Shown here in pieces: positions 12,902 through 40,304 of a DNA stretch of 64,000 bases (the first letter of the stretch is position 1; the number at the start of each line of letters is the position of its first letter). Below the pieces are notes generated by a model, which made no database searches, was not told the DNA's origin, and saw only the letters and a program-made list of their open reading frames with translations. A program made the position numbers and the translations under genes. The DNA comes from Methanohalophilus profundi (GTDB lineage: Archaea; Halobacteriota; Methanosarcinia; Methanosarcinales; Methanosarcinaceae), in the NCBI RefSeq assembly GCF_004137855.1, contig NZ_QBKB01000002.1, forward strand, positions 879,518-943,517, written 5' to 3'.

Positions 12902-12963
12902 GAACATTTCATCTCTCATAATAACGTTTATAACTATTGGTTGTCAGACGTCAGATATATAAC

Positions 12964-13174
12964 GGAGAATGCTGGTACTCCTATTTGCGTATTGTAAGGT
13001 CCTTGCACAAGAATATGGCACAAGCCATTCGATGAGTGTACAGACAACCTCAGTACGCTACAAAAAGGAGACGGTGTGACATTACGCCTGTCACGAGGGT
13101 AACCGGGATGGACAGCGGATATTCCATAGGATGATATCCTGGAGTTAGTGCGTCGGGATACAGCATCGTTCTCC
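12964..13174 (+). ncRNA. candidate structured RNA, about 210 nt, unassigned family
   Basis: The 279-base gap between the second npdG and the UPF0235 gene is rich in nested pairing. The ends close on each other: GGAGAA (12964-12969) with TTCTCC (13169-13174) and TGCTG (12970-12974) with CAGCA (13161-13165), leaving a 3-base bulge. Inside are ATGGC/GCCAT (13015-13019 with 13024-13028, tetraloop), GTGACA/TGTCAC (13076-13081 with 13089-13094) and GGATAT/ATATCC (13117-13122 with 13134-13139). A TATA-like TTTATAAC at about 12928-12935 is placed to start a + strand transcript near 12960. I could not match it to RNase P RNA, SRP RNA, or a known riboswitch. Strand and limits are inferred from the promoter and closing stem only. 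Confidence 0.45.
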
Positions 13175-13198
13175 ACAAAATATAATTGATGGAATAAT

Positions 13199-13510
13199 AT
13201 GCCAATCCGGGATGCCATACACACAAAGGGGAATGGTTGTATAATTGATTTTGAAATTAATCCCGGCTCCAGCAAACTGGTAGTTCCTTCAGGTTACAAT
13301 ACCTGGCGCAAAAGGGTTGAGGGTAAATTAACTGAACCCGCACAAAAAGGAAAAGCCAACGACCAGCTTATACAAGAGCTCAGTCATATATTCCAGATAA
13401 ACATCTCCTCAATAACCATTGTATCCGGTGCAAAAACTACCAAGAAATCGGTACATCTTGAGAATGTGGGCCCAAAAGCAGCAGAAGATGTTCTGGAGCA
13501 ATACCTGTGA
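13199..13510 (+). CDS. UPF0235/DUF167 (YggU-like) protein
   Basis: 103 residues with the DUF167 core: DFEINPGSSKLVVPSGYNTW, then TEPAQKGKANDQLIQELS (the signature A-x-x-G-K-A-N) and a C-terminal SGAKTTKKSVHL. The family is a small alpha/beta protein of unknown biochemical role found across archaea, bacteria and eukaryotes. It follows the structured-RNA candidate by 24 bases and overlaps the next gene by four bases, so the two are co-translated. Confidence 0.88.
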   Translation: MPIRDAIHTKGNGCIIDFEINPGSSKLVVPSGYNTWRKRVEGKLTEPAQKGKANDQLIQELSHIFQINISSITIVSGAKTTKKSVHLENVGPKAAEDVLEQYL

Positions 13511-15541: not shown

Positions 15542-15573
15542 AAGAAGAAAAAGAGAGACCTTTTCAGGCCTCT
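15542..15573 (-). terminator. terminator of the hydantoinase-like gene
   Basis: Minus-strand AGAGGCC pairs with GGTCTCT (15573-15567 with 15560-15554, one G-U pair), followed by a T-rich run. The stop codon at 15564-15566 lies in the loop. Confidence 0.6.
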
Positions 15574-17495
15574 TCGTCTATCAGGCGGGTACCAACTCCC
15601 ATAATCCTGATTTTGGTTTCCATTGGGAAATCCCAACCTTCCGGCACAATCTCATCCTTCTTGACGTCAATTTCCACATGATCCGGGTCCAAGCCGGCGT
15701 CTTCCATGTATTGCATGACCATGGATTGTCCTGTTTCCCTGGCGTATTTTATAGCATCTTTATATTCATAGAAACTCTGTCGCCCTTTTTCAGAAAATAC
15801 ATAGTATTCCCAATCAGGAGCTGCCATGGAAGCAGGTCTTATAAGGAAATCAACCCTCCTTACACCTTTGGCTGCTAGGGCACCTGTGGCATTACCGACA
15901 TCTGAATATTTTGGAACAATAATCTCGGCATCCAGAATACTTCCAAGTATATCCTTATAAGCAACCACGGGCCCACCGATAAGAACAACCGGGATATCAA
16001 CCTTAAACTTTGTAGGACAATCGATATCGAATATTTTACGAATCTCCTCCCTTGGAATACCTTCCAGGAAAAAGGAAATCAGGTCTGAGGCCATATTCTT
16101 GGCAAAGGTTTCCTTGACATATCTGGCAAATTCCTCCCCGGTTCTCTTACACAGGGAACCCAGATATTCAGCACCTACCTCAGCTGCCTCCACATTGCGG
16201 GCGGTATAATCGCCAAGTACATGCAGAGCATCCGTGGAAGTAAAACCAATACACTGCACAAGCCTTTTCTGAATAAGACTATCCAGAATCCGGGTTGAGG
16301 GATACCGGCCCATACGACTGCGTAACTCCCGCAGAGAAGTAGGACTACTAGAGACGGAATCAAGCAATTCCTGCTCCAGGTCATTAAGGCCCATTGCTTC
16401 ATATTCAGTACGTGTAAAAAAGGTCGTGGGCTGGAAATTCATGCCGATCAAAGTTTTGGTTGGCATGGGATTGATCTTGAGAAGTTCCAGGAAATCAGGA
16501 TAGAGATCCGCTGCCCTGCAAAGGGGAATTACACGTCGCGGTCCAATATTCAATTTACCGTCCTTTACCCATATGTGACTGTCACCACCCATTGCTGAGG
16601 TTTCCATCTTAATAGCCTTGACACGGGTCTTCCATCCACCGACAACCGCTCCCATCTCACTCATTTCAGGAACGCCATCCTTTATAACGGATATATCGGT
16701 ACTTGTACCTCCCACATCAATAACTGCGCATGAATCGTTTCCTGTCAAAAAGGAAGCTCCTACAAGACTTCCCGCAGGTCCCGAGAAAATAGATTCAATA
16801 GGCTTTTCCAGTGCACTTTTGATACCTATAACAGAGCCATCGCATTTGAGCATGAATATCTTCGGACTGATTCCTCTGGAAGTTACATCCTTTTCCACAG
16901 TGGACATGAATCTTTCTGTGATGGGCAATAGCTGAGCATTGAAAAAGGCAGTTGTTGCTCTTTCAAAGGCACCAAGATCCTGAGAAAGCTCGTGTGCGCA
17001 TACCACTGGAAGACCTGTAGCCTCGCGGATTATCTGCTTGGCCCGGATTTCATGATCAGGGTTACGAATACTGAAAAAGGAAGAGATTGCAAAAGCTGCA
17101 ACCTTGTCCTTTATTTTCACCGCAAATTCCCTGACTGCTTCCTCATCCAGGGGTTCTTTCTCTCCGCCATTATAGGTATGACCACCGGCAACTTTTACAT
17201 AATGAGGAGTCGGAAGTTTTTCCTTGAGATCATAATTTCCGATCAAAAACAAACCAACGGGGAAACCCGTTCCTTCAAGGATCGTGTTTGTAGAAAGGGT
17301 TGTTGATACGGAAACTATCTTTACTTTCTTGAGTTTTTCCTGGTCGAGACCATCAATTGAGTTTTTTATCCCATCCAGAGGATCGGGATATGTTGTAAGT
17401 GCTTTATTTGAATCAAGAATACTATCAGTGTCATCATCCAGAAGAACAGAATCAGTATAAGTTCCTCCAGCATCTATTCCCAAACTGTATACCAT
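15564..17495 (-). CDS. hydantoinase/oxoprolinase family protein
   Basis: 643 residues from the start chosen. Members are ATP-dependent hydrolases of cyclic amides (5-oxoproline, hydantoins) or acetone-carboxylase-like subunits. Actin-like ATPase motifs are present: YSLGIDAGGTYTDSVLLD (phosphate 1), VSVSTTLSTNTILEGTG, and AVIDVGGTSTDISVI (phosphate 2). The last 150 residues are less typical. Methanogens often carry one stand-alone homolog with unproven substrate; no HyuB partner is next to it here. The ATG at 17495 has GGAGGTG 7 bases upstream; the extension to 17522 has no such site. Confidence 0.85.
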   Translation of the reverse strand: MVYSLGIDAGGTYTDSVLLDDDTDSILDSNKALTTYPDPLDGIKNSIDGLDQEKLKKVKIVSVSTTLSTNTILEGTGFPVGLFLIGNYDLKEKLPTPHYVKVAGGHTYNGGEKEPLDEEAVREFAVKIKDKVAAFAISSFFSIRNPDHEIRAKQIIREATGLPVVCAHELSQDLGAFERATTAFFNAQLLPITERFMSTVEKDVTSRGISPKIFMLKCDGSVIGIKSALEKPIESIFSGPAGSLVGASFLTGNDSCAVIDVGGTSTDISVIKDGVPEMSEMGAVVGGWKTRVKAIKMETSAMGGDSHIWVKDGKLNIGPRRVIPLCRAADLYPDFLELLKINPMPTKTLIGMNFQPTTFFTRTEYEAMGLNDLEQELLDSVSSSPTSLRELRSRMGRYPSTRILDSLIQKRLVQCIGFTSTDALHVLGDYTARNVEAAEVGAEYLGSLCKRTGEEFARYVKETFAKNMASDLISFFLEGIPREEIRKIFDIDCPTKFKVDIPVVLIGGPVVAYKDILGSILDAEIIVPKYSDVGNATGALAAKGVRRVDFLIRPASMAAPDWEYYVFSEKGRQSFYEYKDAIKYARETGQSMVMQYMEDAGLDPDHVEIDVKKDEIVPEGWDFPMETKIRIMGVGTRLIDEEA

Positions 17496-17767
17496 GCCGG
17501 AACACCTCCAATATATTAGCAATTTATATGTACAAATCGGCTAAATTGAGTTATAAAAGGTTCCATAAATTCACGGCTACATAAAGATACCGCATTATCC
17601 TATCGGTGTGAACATTCTAAATAATGGCTCATGATAACGAAAATAGAGATAAGAGGTATAGAAAAGCAGCCAAATATTTAAAAGAAGAAATAACCTGCCA
17701 AAATGTATAAATCTTTGTCTATATATAGATAAAGCTGCAAACCATTTAACAAAGTGAGGGACGGGGC

Positions 17768-17962
17768 ATGAATAAAAAAGAGGATTTTTAGTGGGAAAAA
17801 TCACCTGTTTCCGAAAAAGAAAAGGAAAAAATCATACCGATCCCCCTTAAATCCAATCACTGGACAGAAGATAAACCAGATATGGATGATGCAGATATTG
17901 TTGTAGATGAATTTAAGGAAAGAATTGCCCGCATTATATCTGATAAGAGGGCAAAAGAGTGA
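17768..17962 (+). CDS. small charged protein with in-frame UAG at codon 8, candidate pyrrolysine protein
   Basis: ATG (17768), seven codons, TAG (17789-17791), then 56 further sense codons to TGA at 17960-17962. The first codons give MNKKEDF; after the UAG the frame reads WEKSPVSEKEKEKIIPIPL, SNHWTEDKPDMDDADIV and VDEFKERIARIISDKRAKE. There is no alternative start after the UAG until a Met deep inside. Signals fit a real gene: TATATATAG at 17720-17728 and GAGGG 7 bases before the ATG. Methanosarcinaceae insert pyrrolysine at UAG, and no other gene here uses TAG as stop. The pylTSBCD genes themselves are not in the window. The 3' end overlaps the convergent ecfT end by 29 bases. A nonsense mutation or paired sequencing errors remain possible. 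Confidence 0.55.
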
Positions 17963-18731
17963 TATTCAAATTCCAGAAGCCAAGCAACAATACAAAAACC
18001 AACATAAGGGCCATCCAGTCATATTTTACCATTTTTAACTCAAAAAGGGATGTCCTGTAGTTGCCCTGATAACATCTGCTTTCCATTCCCATAGCTATAT
18101 CATCCATCATCCTGAAGGCCCCCCTGAGCAAAGGTATCGCCAGTGAGACCAATCCTGAAATCCTTTTTTGCCTTCCCAGACCCCTGCACAGCTGTGCCTG
18201 ATACACTTCTCTCAGAAACCTGTTCAAAACAGGAACCAAATGGATGGATAGGGACATCATGGTGGCAATTTCAAACGAAGTCACTCCTAAGATCTTACCC
18301 GGCAGAGGACGAAGTAGCCTTTCAATTCCCGCCGTCATGTGAGCAGGAGAAGTCGTAGCTGTCAACAGGGAGGCAAATTGTATTAAAAGAACAAAACGCC
18401 CTACAATCCTCAGGCCCTCAAAAAGGCCTGCTGATGTAGCAGAAAAACCATACATATCCATGAAACTATTCCCGGGTATCAGAAATAGCTGGAATATAAA
18501 AATTAATATTAAGAAGGGGGCAATTGGACGAAGGTTTCGCAGCAGTGCAATCCGCACAGACGAAAGATAGTACAAAACCATGAATAATGCAAATAGCAGG
18601 ACCAGACCTGTAAGATGCAACCTGAAGATCAAAATGCTGATCAGCATCGTAGCTATTAGTTTTGTGCGGGGGTCAAGCTTGTGCAAGAAGGAATCTCCGG
18701 GAACAAAACTCAAAAAATAATCAGGCGTCAT
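17934..18731 (-). CDS. ecfT: energy-coupling factor transporter transmembrane protein EcfT (CbiQ/BioN family)
   Basis: The membrane coupling subunit of an ECF vitamin transporter, with five or six helices. LDPRTKLIATMLISILIF near the N-terminus is the classic EcfT start. The C-terminal cytoplasmic part carries the two coupling helices with the Ala-Arg-Gly-type motifs modified to QLCRGLGRQKRI and MESRCYQGNYRTS. It is last in the bioY-ecfA-ecfA-ecfT operon and overlaps the preceding ATPase gene. I chose the ATG at 18731, 6 bases after CGGAG, over the one at 18737. Confidence 0.9.
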   Translation of the reverse strand: MTPDYFLSFVPGDSFLHKLDPRTKLIATMLISILIFRLHLTGLVLLFALFMVLYYLSSVRIALLRNLRPIAPFLILIFIFQLFLIPGNSFMDMYGFSATSAGLFEGLRIVGRFVLLIQFASLLTATTSPAHMTAGIERLLRPLPGKILGVTSFEIATMMSLSIHLVPVLNRFLREVYQAQLCRGLGRQKRISGLVSLAIPLLRGAFRMMDDIAMGMESRCYQGNYRTSLFELKMVKYDWMALMLVFVLLLGFWNLNITLLPSYQI

Positions 18732-19533
18732 CCACATCTCCGATTTCTAATTTTTCCAATTGCTTGATTGCACTTTCCACTGTAAACGTAGCCGGGTTCA
18801 CTGGTAAACCTCTTGCATGCAGCCTCTTCATCAAAGCGGTTATAGGCGGTAGAGGAAGACTATCATCCAAAAGGTACTGCTGTCTTTGGCCATCAAAACA
18901 AATTATTCCATCCCGCAGGTAGATAATTCGCGGAGCTACTTCAAGCAGTTTATCAAGATGATGAGAAATAACGATGATTCCTACTCCCATATTCTGCAAG
19001 GTCTGTATAATATGAGGGAGGCGCGTTTTTCCTTTTGTATCAAGCCCTGCAAGAGGTTCATCGAGCACCATATATCTGGGAGACTGGGCAATTATTCCTG
19101 CCAAAGACACCAGTTTCTGTTCCCCTCCACTAATCCCGAAGGGAGATACTTCAAGGAGGGATTTATCCAAACCCACTATATTTACTGCCTTGTTCACCTG
19201 TCTTTCAATATCCCTTCTATCAAAACCAAAATTTGAAGGACCAAAAGCAATATCATCATAAACCGTTTTTTCAAAGAGTTGCCTGGAAGAATGCTGAAAC
19301 AGGACACCTACCATTTCCTTTACTTTTTTAGCACGAGATGGATAACCATCAATTTGCACAATACCACTGTCCGGTTCTAGCAGACCAACAAGCAGACGCA
19401 ACAAGGTTGATTTACCCGCACCTACAGGCCCCGTCATGCCCACGATTTCACCGGGTTTTATGCACATGGATACATTTTGTAAGACTATATTTTGCCCGTA
19501 TGAAAAATTCAAATTCTTGACTTCAATTGCCAG
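18721..19533 (-). CDS. ecfA2: ECF transporter ATPase EcfA (second), likely CTG start
   Basis: ABC ATPase that powers the biotin ECF transporter with its partner at 19509. Walker A GPVGAGKSTLLR, Q-loop LFQHSSRQLF, signature FGISGGEQKLVSLA, Walker B YMVLDEPLAGLD and H-loop IVISHHLD. From the first standard start (TTG at 19512) the protein would begin inside the first beta-strand. The same frame extends to a CTG at 19531-19533, giving AIEVKNLNFSYG, the complete N-terminal strand, with GGAGG 7 bases upstream of that CTG. I therefore propose a CTG start overlapping the previous gene. Otherwise normal in length. Confidence 0.88.
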   Translation of the reverse strand: MAIEVKNLNFSYGQNIVLQNVSMCIKPGEIVGMTGPVGAGKSTLLRLLVGLLEPDSGIVQIDGYPSRAKKVKEMVGVLFQHSSRQLFEKTVYDDIAFGPSNFGFDRRDIERQVNKAVNIVGLDKSLLEVSPFGISGGEQKLVSLAGIIAQSPRYMVLDEPLAGLDTKGKTRLPHIIQTLQNMGVGIIVISHHLDKLLEVAPRIIYLRDGIICFDGQRQQYLLDDSLPLPPITALMKRLHARGLPVNPATFTVESAIKQLEKLEIGDVDDA

Positions 19534-28629: not shown

Positions 28630-29376
28630 GTGAAAGTGACATTACTGGGCACAGGAGATGCTCCCGGTACACCGGTCATCGGTTGTAGTTGTCCCACCTG
28701 CCAGGATGGACAAAAGGGCGGGAAAAGCAACCGTCTCAGATGTTCTATCCTTGTAGAATCCAAGGAAGGGAAAATTTTGCTGGACACCGGGCCAGACCTG
28801 CGCCAGCAATTGCTTGAACACAATATAAAGCACGTGGACGGAGTGATATGGACCCACGGCCATTATGATCATTTTACCGGTTTTGGGGAATTCCACAGGG
28901 TGCAAAGAAAAGTAGATGTATACGGCCTTGCTGAAACTCTTGACTACATCCTGGAATATCTGGCTTTTTTGAAACCCAGGAGAAACAACGTTAAAATCAA
29001 TGAGACCTTTGAAATTATCGGGCTTAGGATTACTCTTTTTGAAGTCAAGCACAGGCCGGTGAGCAATCCGGTAGGTGTACTTATAGAGGAAGATGGTAAA
29101 AAAGTGGTCTTCACGGGAGATTGCGAAAAGGAAATCCCACAAAAAAGTCTTGAAATGATTGACAGTCCAGACCTTTTAATCGCCGATGCAATTGTACCGG
29201 ATTCAGATGTGTTGCATATCAAAAAACATATGGATGCAAAGGACGCACTGGAACTTGCCCAAAAAATAAAGGCAAAAAAAGTTGTTTTTACCCATATAAG
29301 CCACTTTTTCAAACCCCATTCTATCGCAGCACAGAAATTCCCAATGGGATACGACGGAATGCAGTTTGTAATATGA
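28630..29376 (+). CDS. MBL-fold metal-dependent hydrolase, PhnP-like
   Basis: 248 residues with GTG start directly after the previous stop. Metal ligands: WTHGHYDHFTGF (HxHxDH at about 76-81), FTGDCE (Asp) and THISH near the end. The N-terminus has LGTGDAPGTPVIGCSCPTCQ, the zinc-finger-like Cys group of the PhnP/RNase Z-type phosphodiesterase branch. Likely substrate is a cyclic phosphate or similar phosphodiester; RNase Z itself is less likely because the flexible arm is missing. It ends 3 bases before the convergent lipoprotein gene if that gene's true stop is used. Confidence 0.85.
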   Translation: MKVTLLGTGDAPGTPVIGCSCPTCQDGQKGGKSNRLRCSILVESKEGKILLDTGPDLRQQLLEHNIKHVDGVIWTHGHYDHFTGFGEFHRVQRKVDVYGLAETLDYILEYLAFLKPRRNNVKINETFEIIGLRITLFEVKHRPVSNPVGVLIEEDGKKVVFTGDCEKEIPQKSLEMIDSPDLLIADAIVPDSDVLHIKKHMDAKDALELAQKIKAKKVVFTHISHFFKPHSIAAQKFPMGYDGMQFVI

Positions 29377-29379
29377 CAT

Positions 29380-30290
29380 TCAACGTTTTTTGTCTTTTCC
29401 CAGCCTTCTTCTGCAATCCGTATTGTTTCATTCAGTTTTCTACGATTTCTCAGGAAATTCCCGATGACCAGAAGCACGCCTGCACAAAGTATTGATGTAC
29501 CGATCAGCAGGTTACGGGGTGCATCTTCTGAATAAAATTTGAGATGAAGAGTCTTAAACTTAATTTCTTCTTCCTCTTCTTCGTCGGAAGGCAAGAAACC
29601 TTTTGCCAGAGAAGACAATGATGAAGAAGTATTCTGACGCAGATTATTCCAGACAAGTACTTCCCTGCCCTGTTCATCGAAGTACCTGTAATCGGGTGCT
29701 GGCTCAACCTTCCCGATAAACTGGTTACCTGTTGTATACCCTTCTGGAAGGACCACCCTTACAGTGGAAAGGTGTGATGGCACATACATGAAATCCTGTC
29801 CCATAGGTACTTCCATTGTATAGGCCACAAACCCTGTAAGACTTTGATTGAAAGAAATTACCTGTTTAGTCTGCCCGGACTCGGATTCTTCAGAAAGGGT
29901 ATAGTCTATTGAATCCGTTGTATCTGAGGTAGACAACTGTCTGACTGTTGCAGCGGGATTACCGTTATTTCCTCCCGGTTTGGCCACAATTACAATGTTT
30001 GAAAGGACATCAGAACCTGGATTTGTAATATCTTCCAGGGGAACTATCTCAAGACGATCTACATTCTCAAGTACATAAACAGCTTTTACAGGCGAATCGG
30101 GGAAAAGGTAGAAAGTAGTCGTATTAATTCCACACTCACATGAATCATTAGCAATGAACGGGTCCAGTGTATACTCCGATGCATTGGTTGTTTCAGCGGT
30201 TTCATCAACAGGTATCATGTCATCGATGCAACCACTAAGATAGATGGCTGAAGTGAGTATCAGAAATAGAACTACCACTTGTTTTTGCAT
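29380..30290 (-). CDS. secreted lipoprotein with C-terminal membrane helix (DUF5803-like), frame broken near 3' end
   Basis: Starts MQKQVVVLFLILTSAIYLSGC, a lipobox ending LSGC at about residue 21. The extracytoplasmic beta-rich part has NNLRQNTSSSLSSLAKGFLP and an acidic run DEEEEEE. A transmembrane helix APRNLLIGTSILCAGVLLVI is followed by a basic end NFLRNRRKLNETIRIAEEG. The raw frame then runs on for about 140 residues into the antisense of the MBL gene, which is not protein-like. One base restored at 29401-29405 gives LGKDKKR and stop at 29380, a natural end. The ATG at 30290 with GGTGG is preferred to the GTG at 30302. Role unknown. Confidence 0.72.
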
Positions 30291-30360
30291 TATACAATCC
30301 ACCGATCGGTTATTTAAAAAAGTTATCGGTGTCCAAGAAAGGAAGGGATTGCCCCTTCAC

Positions 30361-38893: not shown

Positions 38894-40304
38894 TCAACGA
38901 ATCATATTTTTCAGGACAAGATCTTTTGTAATTGTCTCATGAACCATATCCGGATGGATAATATTTCCATCAACCTCAACAGGAATTCCCCTGGCAAGTT
39001 TACCAAACAGAGGTCCTCCGGGGACACCTATACTCTCCGCTTTTATCGGATTGAACTTCCGGTAGGTAAGATACAATATATTGTCCTCTCTAATATACTC
39101 AATTTCATAATGTTCTTTTAGTATTTTAATGCATTCATCTATAATCTGAGTCTGCAAGTCTTCTGCATCTTTCTTTTCAAATAACAGGAAAGAGCCCCTG
39201 TAAGTCCCGTTGTCCCTCTGCAGATATACAAGCGGAAATTTCTGCAGCATATCCAGAAAACCGTCCGGATTACTCTTCCAGGTATAGTGGACCAATCTCT
39301 CATCTATGACCAACTCAACTGGATCCGAGACTACATCAGGTGAAGAATGTTCCAGAACTTTTCGGAGAACATCTGTAAATAACGGTGGTGTAGTGGATTC
39401 TATATCCCTGGAGCGTACCAGAACATTCTTGAACATAGTCCAGGGGATATTTCCAATCTGCTGAATATCACTCTCCCTCAAAACCAGCAGCCCATTTTGC
39501 CGGGCAAGATTATTCAGATGCTCTTTGTCAGAAGAAGAAATGGCTTTTCTGTCCATATAGACAAAATCAGCACCTGATTTATCCACTGCCCGGGTAAAAA
39601 GGGATTCATCAACAAATTCCAGCTGGTAGGAAGGAATATTATGACCAAAGGTCACATTATTGTTAAGAACAATTTCTGATTGCCGGGCTGCATAATGTCC
39701 ACCACCAAACCCCAGAGCTGTTGGCAACTTCCGGGGATTGAAGGTAAGTATGGCCCGGGAGAGTGCTTCTGCGGCCCTTTTGTCATCCCATTGTGCGGGA
39801 CCACTGCCAATCTCTGCATATATAGAAGGAATTTGCAGGTCCGTGGGGCCGTGATGTGTGGATTCCATAGACACATCATAATCCATCCCTGTAGAATAGG
39901 ACTGCAACTGCATCAGTAAAGGTTTAAGGGCAGAAGAATAAGCAATGGAAAGTTTTCCGGGATAGCCACCGAATTTTGCCTCCGAAGGATTGCCTGTAAA
40001 GTGGGCGGTAAGAAGTTTACGGCCATCATCACTTTTTATGTTTGGAAGCAAAAATGAAACATGAAGGAAGAAATCCAAGTTCTCCCAGTTTTTCGTCCAG
40101 GCCGTCCTGAAAGATATGATGGATGGAAACTTCTACAAGCAGGAACTTTCCGGATTCATATATACTGGTTATATCCTCATAAAGAGGCTCAAAGGATCGC
40201 TTTTCCCATTCATCCATTTCCAGAAGATGGGACATTATGTTCATACTCGCAGCATCCACTCTGGAGCATACAATCGTTGGTTTTGGAATTGACATTTGTG
40301 ACAT
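38894..40304 (-). CDS. dtdA: D-aminoacyl-tRNA deacylase (DtdA/GEK1), frame broken once
   Basis: Frees tRNAs mischarged with D-amino acids. The first frame (40304-40029) has PKPTIVCSRVDAASMNI and ends CFIFASKHK. The second continues SDDGRKLLTAHFTGNPSEA, STHHGPTDLQIPSIYAEIGS (zinc site histidines) and ALGFGGGHYAARQSE, as in archaeal DtdA. One extra base in the T5 run at 40033-40037 explains the split. The C-terminal about 150 residues form the extension typical of methanogen proteins (IPVEVDGNIIHPDMVHETI). Total about 450 residues. It follows upstream of ftsZ on the same strand. Confidence 0.88.

Follow-up and report, generated by a model that had tools for sequence, protein, structure and literature searches.

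What becomes of a small gene whose eighth codon is UAG, in a methanogen genus able to decode this triplet as pyrrolysine: is the gene dead, is the UAG simply read as an amino acid, or does the pyrrolysine serve some purpose of its own? The question is raised by a locus of Methanohalophilus profundi lying in a stretch of 64,000 nucleotides, which was analysed as a whole and is referred to here as the window. Our reading of the locus agrees with the initial annotation: an ATG and six sense codons are followed by TAG, a further 56 sense codons and a TGA, giving 64 residues if UAG is counted as a residue, with a translation that begins M-N-K-K-E-D-F-[TAG]-W-E-K (Table 1). The TATA box and ribosome site described there were likewise found, by motif reading, in the form of TATA-like stretches around 17701-17730 and of a ribosome-site-like, purine-rich GTGAGGG at 17754-17760, ahead of the ATG. 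The bare pattern is not unusual in the window, where an ATG at most 20 codons ahead of an in-frame TAG that is followed by at least 56 sense codons occurs in 22 cases among the 943 TAG triplets of both strands; it is conservation that lifts this frame above chance, and a chance reading frame was rejected on the strength of its homologs. The accompanying statement that no gene of the window ends in TAG held as far as it was followed: two of 62 non-overlapping reading frames of at least 100 aa do so, of which one (28944-30302, reverse strand) runs antisense to a long open frame that is apparently the true gene, and the other (12934-13275, reverse strand) remains.

Table 1. Features at the locus of the small gene, in window coordinates.
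Feature	Position	Strand	Basis or remark
Small-protein gene, 64 aa	17768..17962	+	Sequence read, homolog searches, member table
In-frame TAG, codon 8	17789..17791	+	Ser 35, TAG 4, Met 2, Thr 2, Leu 1, Ile 1 in 45 distinct members
Likely promoter and ribosome-site-like motif	17701..17760	+	Motif reading
CbiQ-family ECF transporter T component	17934..18737	-	Convergent; 29-base overlap with small-gene 3' end
Hydantoinase/oxoprolinase-family protein	15564..17492	-	Divergent upstream neighbour; one of seven rate-yardstick genes

A single-protein search recovered the family in 18 of 111 genomes of the taxonomic family, and two profile searches detected it in 42 of the 185 order genomes (5 of 27 genera) and in 42 of the 237 class genomes (5 of 39 genera). 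In the genomes searched, then, the small protein appears restricted to part of one methanogen family. Loci from each of the 42 matched genomes were inspected and yielded 45 distinct full members; a 46th row (L156) was a chance match and was dropped. Members share the pattern M-x(3-4)-D-[F/Y]-x-W, followed by hydrophobic residues resembling I-x-x-I-P and, towards the C-terminus, by a segment containing F-K; the D-Y-S-W form also occurs among them. The position between D-[F/Y] and W corresponds to codon 8, and there the codons are TCA in 16 members, TCG in 13, TCC in four, TCT in two, ATG and ACG in two each, CTT and ATT in one each, and TAG in four, all of the latter from Methanohalophilus (genomes G000, which holds the window, G032, G035 and G036). 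By this comparison position 8 is mostly Ser and appears tolerant of quite different residues. Among the matches listed, internal stops comprised one TAG in each of these four genomes and one TGA in G034, with none outside Methanohalophilus. UAG is thus not conserved in the homologs, 41 of the 45 distinct members having a sense codon, which argues against a need for pyrrolysine of the methyltransferase type. The notion of pyrrolysine as a feature of the family fails here, by an outcome that the initial annotation itself had listed as refuting: every matched genome with a full copy, outside the four Methanohalophilus, has a sense codon, mostly Ser, so pyrrolysine does not define the family, a result that leaves the insertion of pyrrolysine itself standing.

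We could not assign the protein to any known family, as no match exceeded a cut-off: Pfam returned no family up to an E-value of 1, the sole NCBIfam hit was a PurL model at 0.13 that fell well short of its cut-off (P0001 and one homolog searched in both), PHROGs gave no family for 34 members, and the best match among solved structures had an E-value of 0.44. No methyltransferase domain was found in the protein, and it is named in none of the literature listings searched. The protein has no Cys, and from its sequence it looks to have an acidic middle and a helical-looking C-terminal part. We would guess, tentatively, that it might act as an adaptor or modulator of small size, bearing a short motif at its N-terminus and a helix at its C-terminus. 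At seven loci in three other genera (Methanolobus among them) the small gene faces an SO_0444 Cu/Zn efflux-type permease, and at six of these an ArsR/SmtB-type gene comes next, followed by a cbiQ-ecf-bioY-thermosome block, the names of these neighbours coming from library searches at L059 and L063 and from clustering at the others. A functional link to the permease is nonetheless weak, the loci of G000 and G033 lacking both the permease and the ArsR/SmtB-type neighbour and yet keeping the small gene. Copy number varies: G033 has three family copies (L064, L065 and L071), all DFSW, one of them longer with a repeated segment, and G021, G019 and G025 (L194, L195 and L196) each have two copies side by side, one of the pair in G021 and G019 being longer, with its middle motif doubled.

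The premise that this lineage can decode UAG was borne out. pylS was found over the cut-off in all eight Methanohalophilus genomes and a tRNA-Pyl (cta) gene lies just before it in G000 (locus L080), which together place the decoding machinery in this genome; pylB, pylC and pylD are probably present as well, judging from gene order and the look of their sequences. Pyrrolysine has been detected by LC-MS/MS at the UAG of MttB in Methanohalophilus portucalensis (PMC4928046), and M. mahii has been screened for conserved in-frame UAG (PMC3639795). TAG is rare as a stop: in the first 244 kb sampled of G000 it ends 10 of 241 reading frames of at least 100 aa, at least one of the 10 being a shadow frame, although it makes up 17.8% of the stop triplets there. 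It may still terminate translation in places, since pylB (L080:8261-9442) appears to end in TAG; pylC starts in an overlapping frame, and read-through of the pylB TAG would add 39 residues.

To see whether UAG is read as sense elsewhere, other in-frame TAGs were sampled in about 35% of G000 (644 kb) and, for G035 and G032, in about 410 kb and 236 kb respectively. Eight of the 14 candidates scanned had TAG inside a Pfam domain of an otherwise intact gene, unmatched by TAA or TGA (0 of 15), the two candidate sets having been chosen by different filters. G000 contributed five of nine that were picked from its candidate list and scanned, namely prolyl-tRNA synthetase (ProRS), an ALS-like TPP enzyme, malic enzyme, a UDP-glucose/GDP-mannose dehydrogenase and HemA; its remaining four were a HEAT-repeat protein, which was ambiguous, and three without a domain spanning the TAG. 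Four of the five candidates listed for G035 were scanned and three were spanned (a PAS kinase, a DUF7289 protein and a DinB-like polymerase, in which the TAG lies near the domain's end), and the one scanned of two listed for G032 was not. The controls were 10 of 11 TAA/TGA candidates without a nearby restart in G000 and five picked from 67 listed in G035 and G032; none was spanned. The simplest account of these genomes is that UAG serves Methanohalophilus as an infrequent sense codon in scattered, unrelated genes.

Eight TAGs other than that of the small gene, scattered over unrelated housekeeping genes, were compared across genomes, in ProRS, IlvB, the ALS-like enzyme, HemA and malic enzyme of G000, ProRS and CbiQ of G037 and a TPP enzyme of G036, and each was private to one of the genomes compared. 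At the G000 positions relatives have Trp, Gly, Ser or Lys in ProRS (7 genomes), Gln or Arg in IlvB (7 genomes), Gln or Lys in the ALS-like enzyme (3 genomes), Trp in HemA (7 genomes) and Lys in malic enzyme (5 genomes); at the G036 position the residue is Glu in both G035 and G032. A single full-length ProRS is present in each genome; the in-frame TAG is at codon 177 in G000 (L105:10628-12064; C2:160628-162064) and a different one is at codon 59 in G037. In CbiQ of G037 (L055) a single in-frame TAG occurs in a frame that is otherwise intact. For the G000-private TAGs of ProRS and HemA, the relatives' codon would make CCTGG, a context that is error-prone in some long reads. Elsewhere in the window a gene at about 38894-40304 (reverse strand), presumably the D-aminoacyl-tRNA deacylase-like dtdA, is split over two frames at an A-run (40023-40040) in G000, its frame being uninterrupted in G035 and G032; the frameshift would be either a recent mutation or an assembly error. 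Taken with the CCTGG context it means that single TAGs of G000 may be sequencing errors, which leaves untouched the codon-8 TAG of four genomes and the TAGs of G035, G036 and G037.

The history of the small gene was followed across the eight genomes of the genus. Each of the four assemblies with the TAG form has an intact copy, and two of these assemblies are single contigs. At this locus the G033 ortholog reads DFSW. In G034 there is a remnant of codons 20-64 only, with a TGA at codon 32, in G031 only the last codons persist, where they overlap CbiQ, and in G037 the locus is without the small gene and the whole genome gave no match. With the gene lost or broken in three of eight genomes (G034, G031 and G037), it is to all appearances dispensable. 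A tree of seven neighbour genes groups G034 and G031 with G032, inside the TAG-bearing clade, so their losses probably came after the TAG; pairwise distances vary from gene to gene among these neighbours, a sign of recombination that makes the tree only a guide.

How strongly the frame is held beyond the TAG can be judged against the neutral rate of the same seven genes, whose four-fold sites are variable at 301 of 1089 positions among the four TAG genomes. Nine of 165 columns vary in the body of the small gene (the columns before the CbiQ overlap), compared with 45 expected under neutrality. In 20,000 neutral simulations on the tree at the four-fold rate, variable columns averaged 45 with a minimum of 21, and none gave nine or fewer. 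Upstream of the gene, seven of 60 columns vary directly before the ATG, 21 of 70 in the next segment and 16 of 116 in another set of upstream columns. The body therefore varies far below the neutral rate, from which it follows that the TAG did not kill the gene, and we regard the gene, on this conservation, as alive and intact, its in-frame UAG lying within a reading frame that is conserved and that selection has kept. Some of the constraint may act on RNA or nucleic acid, or reflect chance, because synonymous sites are slow too (pS about 0.07 versus about 0.2 in the neighbour genes) and pN/pS, at 0.26, exceeds the 0.05-0.22 of the neighbours. We accordingly set aside pN/pS as proof of selection in its own right, there being few changes. 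The homologs, the presence of pylS and tRNA-Pyl and the constraint past the UAG nevertheless uphold the central proposal of the initial annotation, that this is a real gene, other than a methyltransferase, with an in-frame UAG.

These data bear on two readings in which no pyrrolysine is inserted. The TAG could be a nonsense mutation that killed a dispensable gene, the remainder now decaying, and the loss or breakage of the gene within the genus and the absence of the family from 143 of the 185 order genomes would fit such a course. Yet all four copies keep start, frame and stop and are less variable than any simulated run, and the truly broken remnant of G034, which has acquired a TGA, differs from the TAG copies at 6-11 of 108 bases, whereas these differ among themselves at 1-6 of 108; we consider decay quite improbable. 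Alternatively, ribosomes could stop at the UAG and restart at the ATG of codon 39, by eye the first in-frame ATG, GTG or TTG after it, to make a 26-residue peptide for which the first start would be a leader. The family is conserved from its N-terminus, however, and codons 9-38, between the TAG and that ATG, are slow (8 of 90 columns variable, binomial P about 1e-5), which argues against a restart and makes it the least credible of the readings considered.

We think it likely, instead, that this is a living small gene in which a change from Ser to pyrrolysine has been tolerated neutrally where UAG serves as sense. In the ancestor of the main Methanohalophilus clade, a Ser codon of the D-F-S-W motif would have become TAG, which from TCG would take one base change. 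With UAG read by Pyl-tRNA in scattered ordinary genes, ribosomes would insert pyrrolysine at position 8 and continue to the TGA. Relatives have Met, Thr, Leu or Ile at this position, which suggests that the replacement was tolerated, its persistence being most likely due to drift, neutral or nearly so. Both the insertion at codon 8 and the neutrality of the change are what we infer from the comparisons above.

A reading that shares the insertion and disputes the neutrality is that pyrrolysine at position 8 was selected, either so that the protein is synthesised only with plentiful Pyl-tRNA, tracking methylamine use, or for the function of its reactive side chain. A UAG so early in a gene would make an efficient gate, the meaning of UAG is growth-dependent in the bacterium Acetohalobium according to PMC8211752, and the codon-8 TAG is common to four species, whereas the eight other TAGs compared are each private. 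Sharing is not proof of selection, as 38% of neutral simulation runs retain the TAG in every one of the four genomes. The Ser, Met, Thr, Leu or Ile of the homologs also speaks against selection, as does the RNA, which has no clear fold after the UAG (z -0.9, with 39 of 200 shuffles as good) and, over 17600-18100, no match near its gathering score in Rfam; a PYLIS element was rejected on the same grounds. The suggestion that the residue acts as a sensor likewise gained nothing in its support, because homologs use ordinary residues, and no finding supported a dependence of synthesis on pyrrolysine supply. We therefore regard selection for the pyrrolysine as unlikely, and hold out equally little prospect that the UAG is a working gate through which an otherwise constitutive protein would be made only with abundant Pyl-tRNA and so be coupled to methylamine metabolism. 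Were this gate real, the sharing of the TAG by four species, unlike the eight other TAGs, would be a trace of selection.

Under neutral tolerance, which we favour, the small gene would be one more example of a known habit of the genetic code and not a system of a new kind. Its case indicates that in Methanohalophilus UAG arises and persists in small genes outside the use of methylamines, and probably also in essential ones such as that for prolyl-tRNA synthetase; genes of this sort will be missed or truncated when annotated with the standard code. As the same protein has Ser in Methanolobus and UAG in Methanohalophilus, the pair would offer a natural test of the tolerance of Ser-to-pyrrolysine replacement.

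An archaeal code in which all TAG codons mean pyrrolysine has reportedly been described (by Kivenson and colleagues, in Science, 2025). Methanohalophilus resembles it in having UAG as sense in many unrelated genes and TAG rarely as a stop; it differs in that pylB here still seems to end in TAG and the signs of sense reading concern a sample of TAGs.

Two other small proteins of the Methanosarcinales invite comparison, namely MtrI and MtrR of Methanosarcina mazei, MtrI being described as a four-Cys zinc ribbon protein whose distribution is patchy, as is that of our family (PMC12774963, PMC13370731). Kinship was rejected on the published description of MtrI, which has a Cys zinc ribbon, whereas the 64-aa protein has no Cys. 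With the methylamine methyltransferases MtmB, MtbB and MttB, in which pyrrolysine is held important for methyl transfer (PMC2933860), the small gene has in common an in-frame UAG and an archaeal host that possesses pylS and tRNA-Pyl; unlike them, its homologs have ordinary residues and its product has no detected methyltransferase domain. The closer parallel is Thg1, the tRNA-His guanylyltransferase of M. acetivorans, which has a dispensable in-frame UAG translated as pyrrolysine; as PMC2933860 describes it, homologs in other methanogens are without the UAG, the gene is kept and the residue is non-essential. Thg1 is an enzyme of known function in which pyrrolysine has been physically seen, whereas in the small protein it is predicted; on the other hand, the UAG of Thg1 belongs to one species, and that of the small gene is shared by four.
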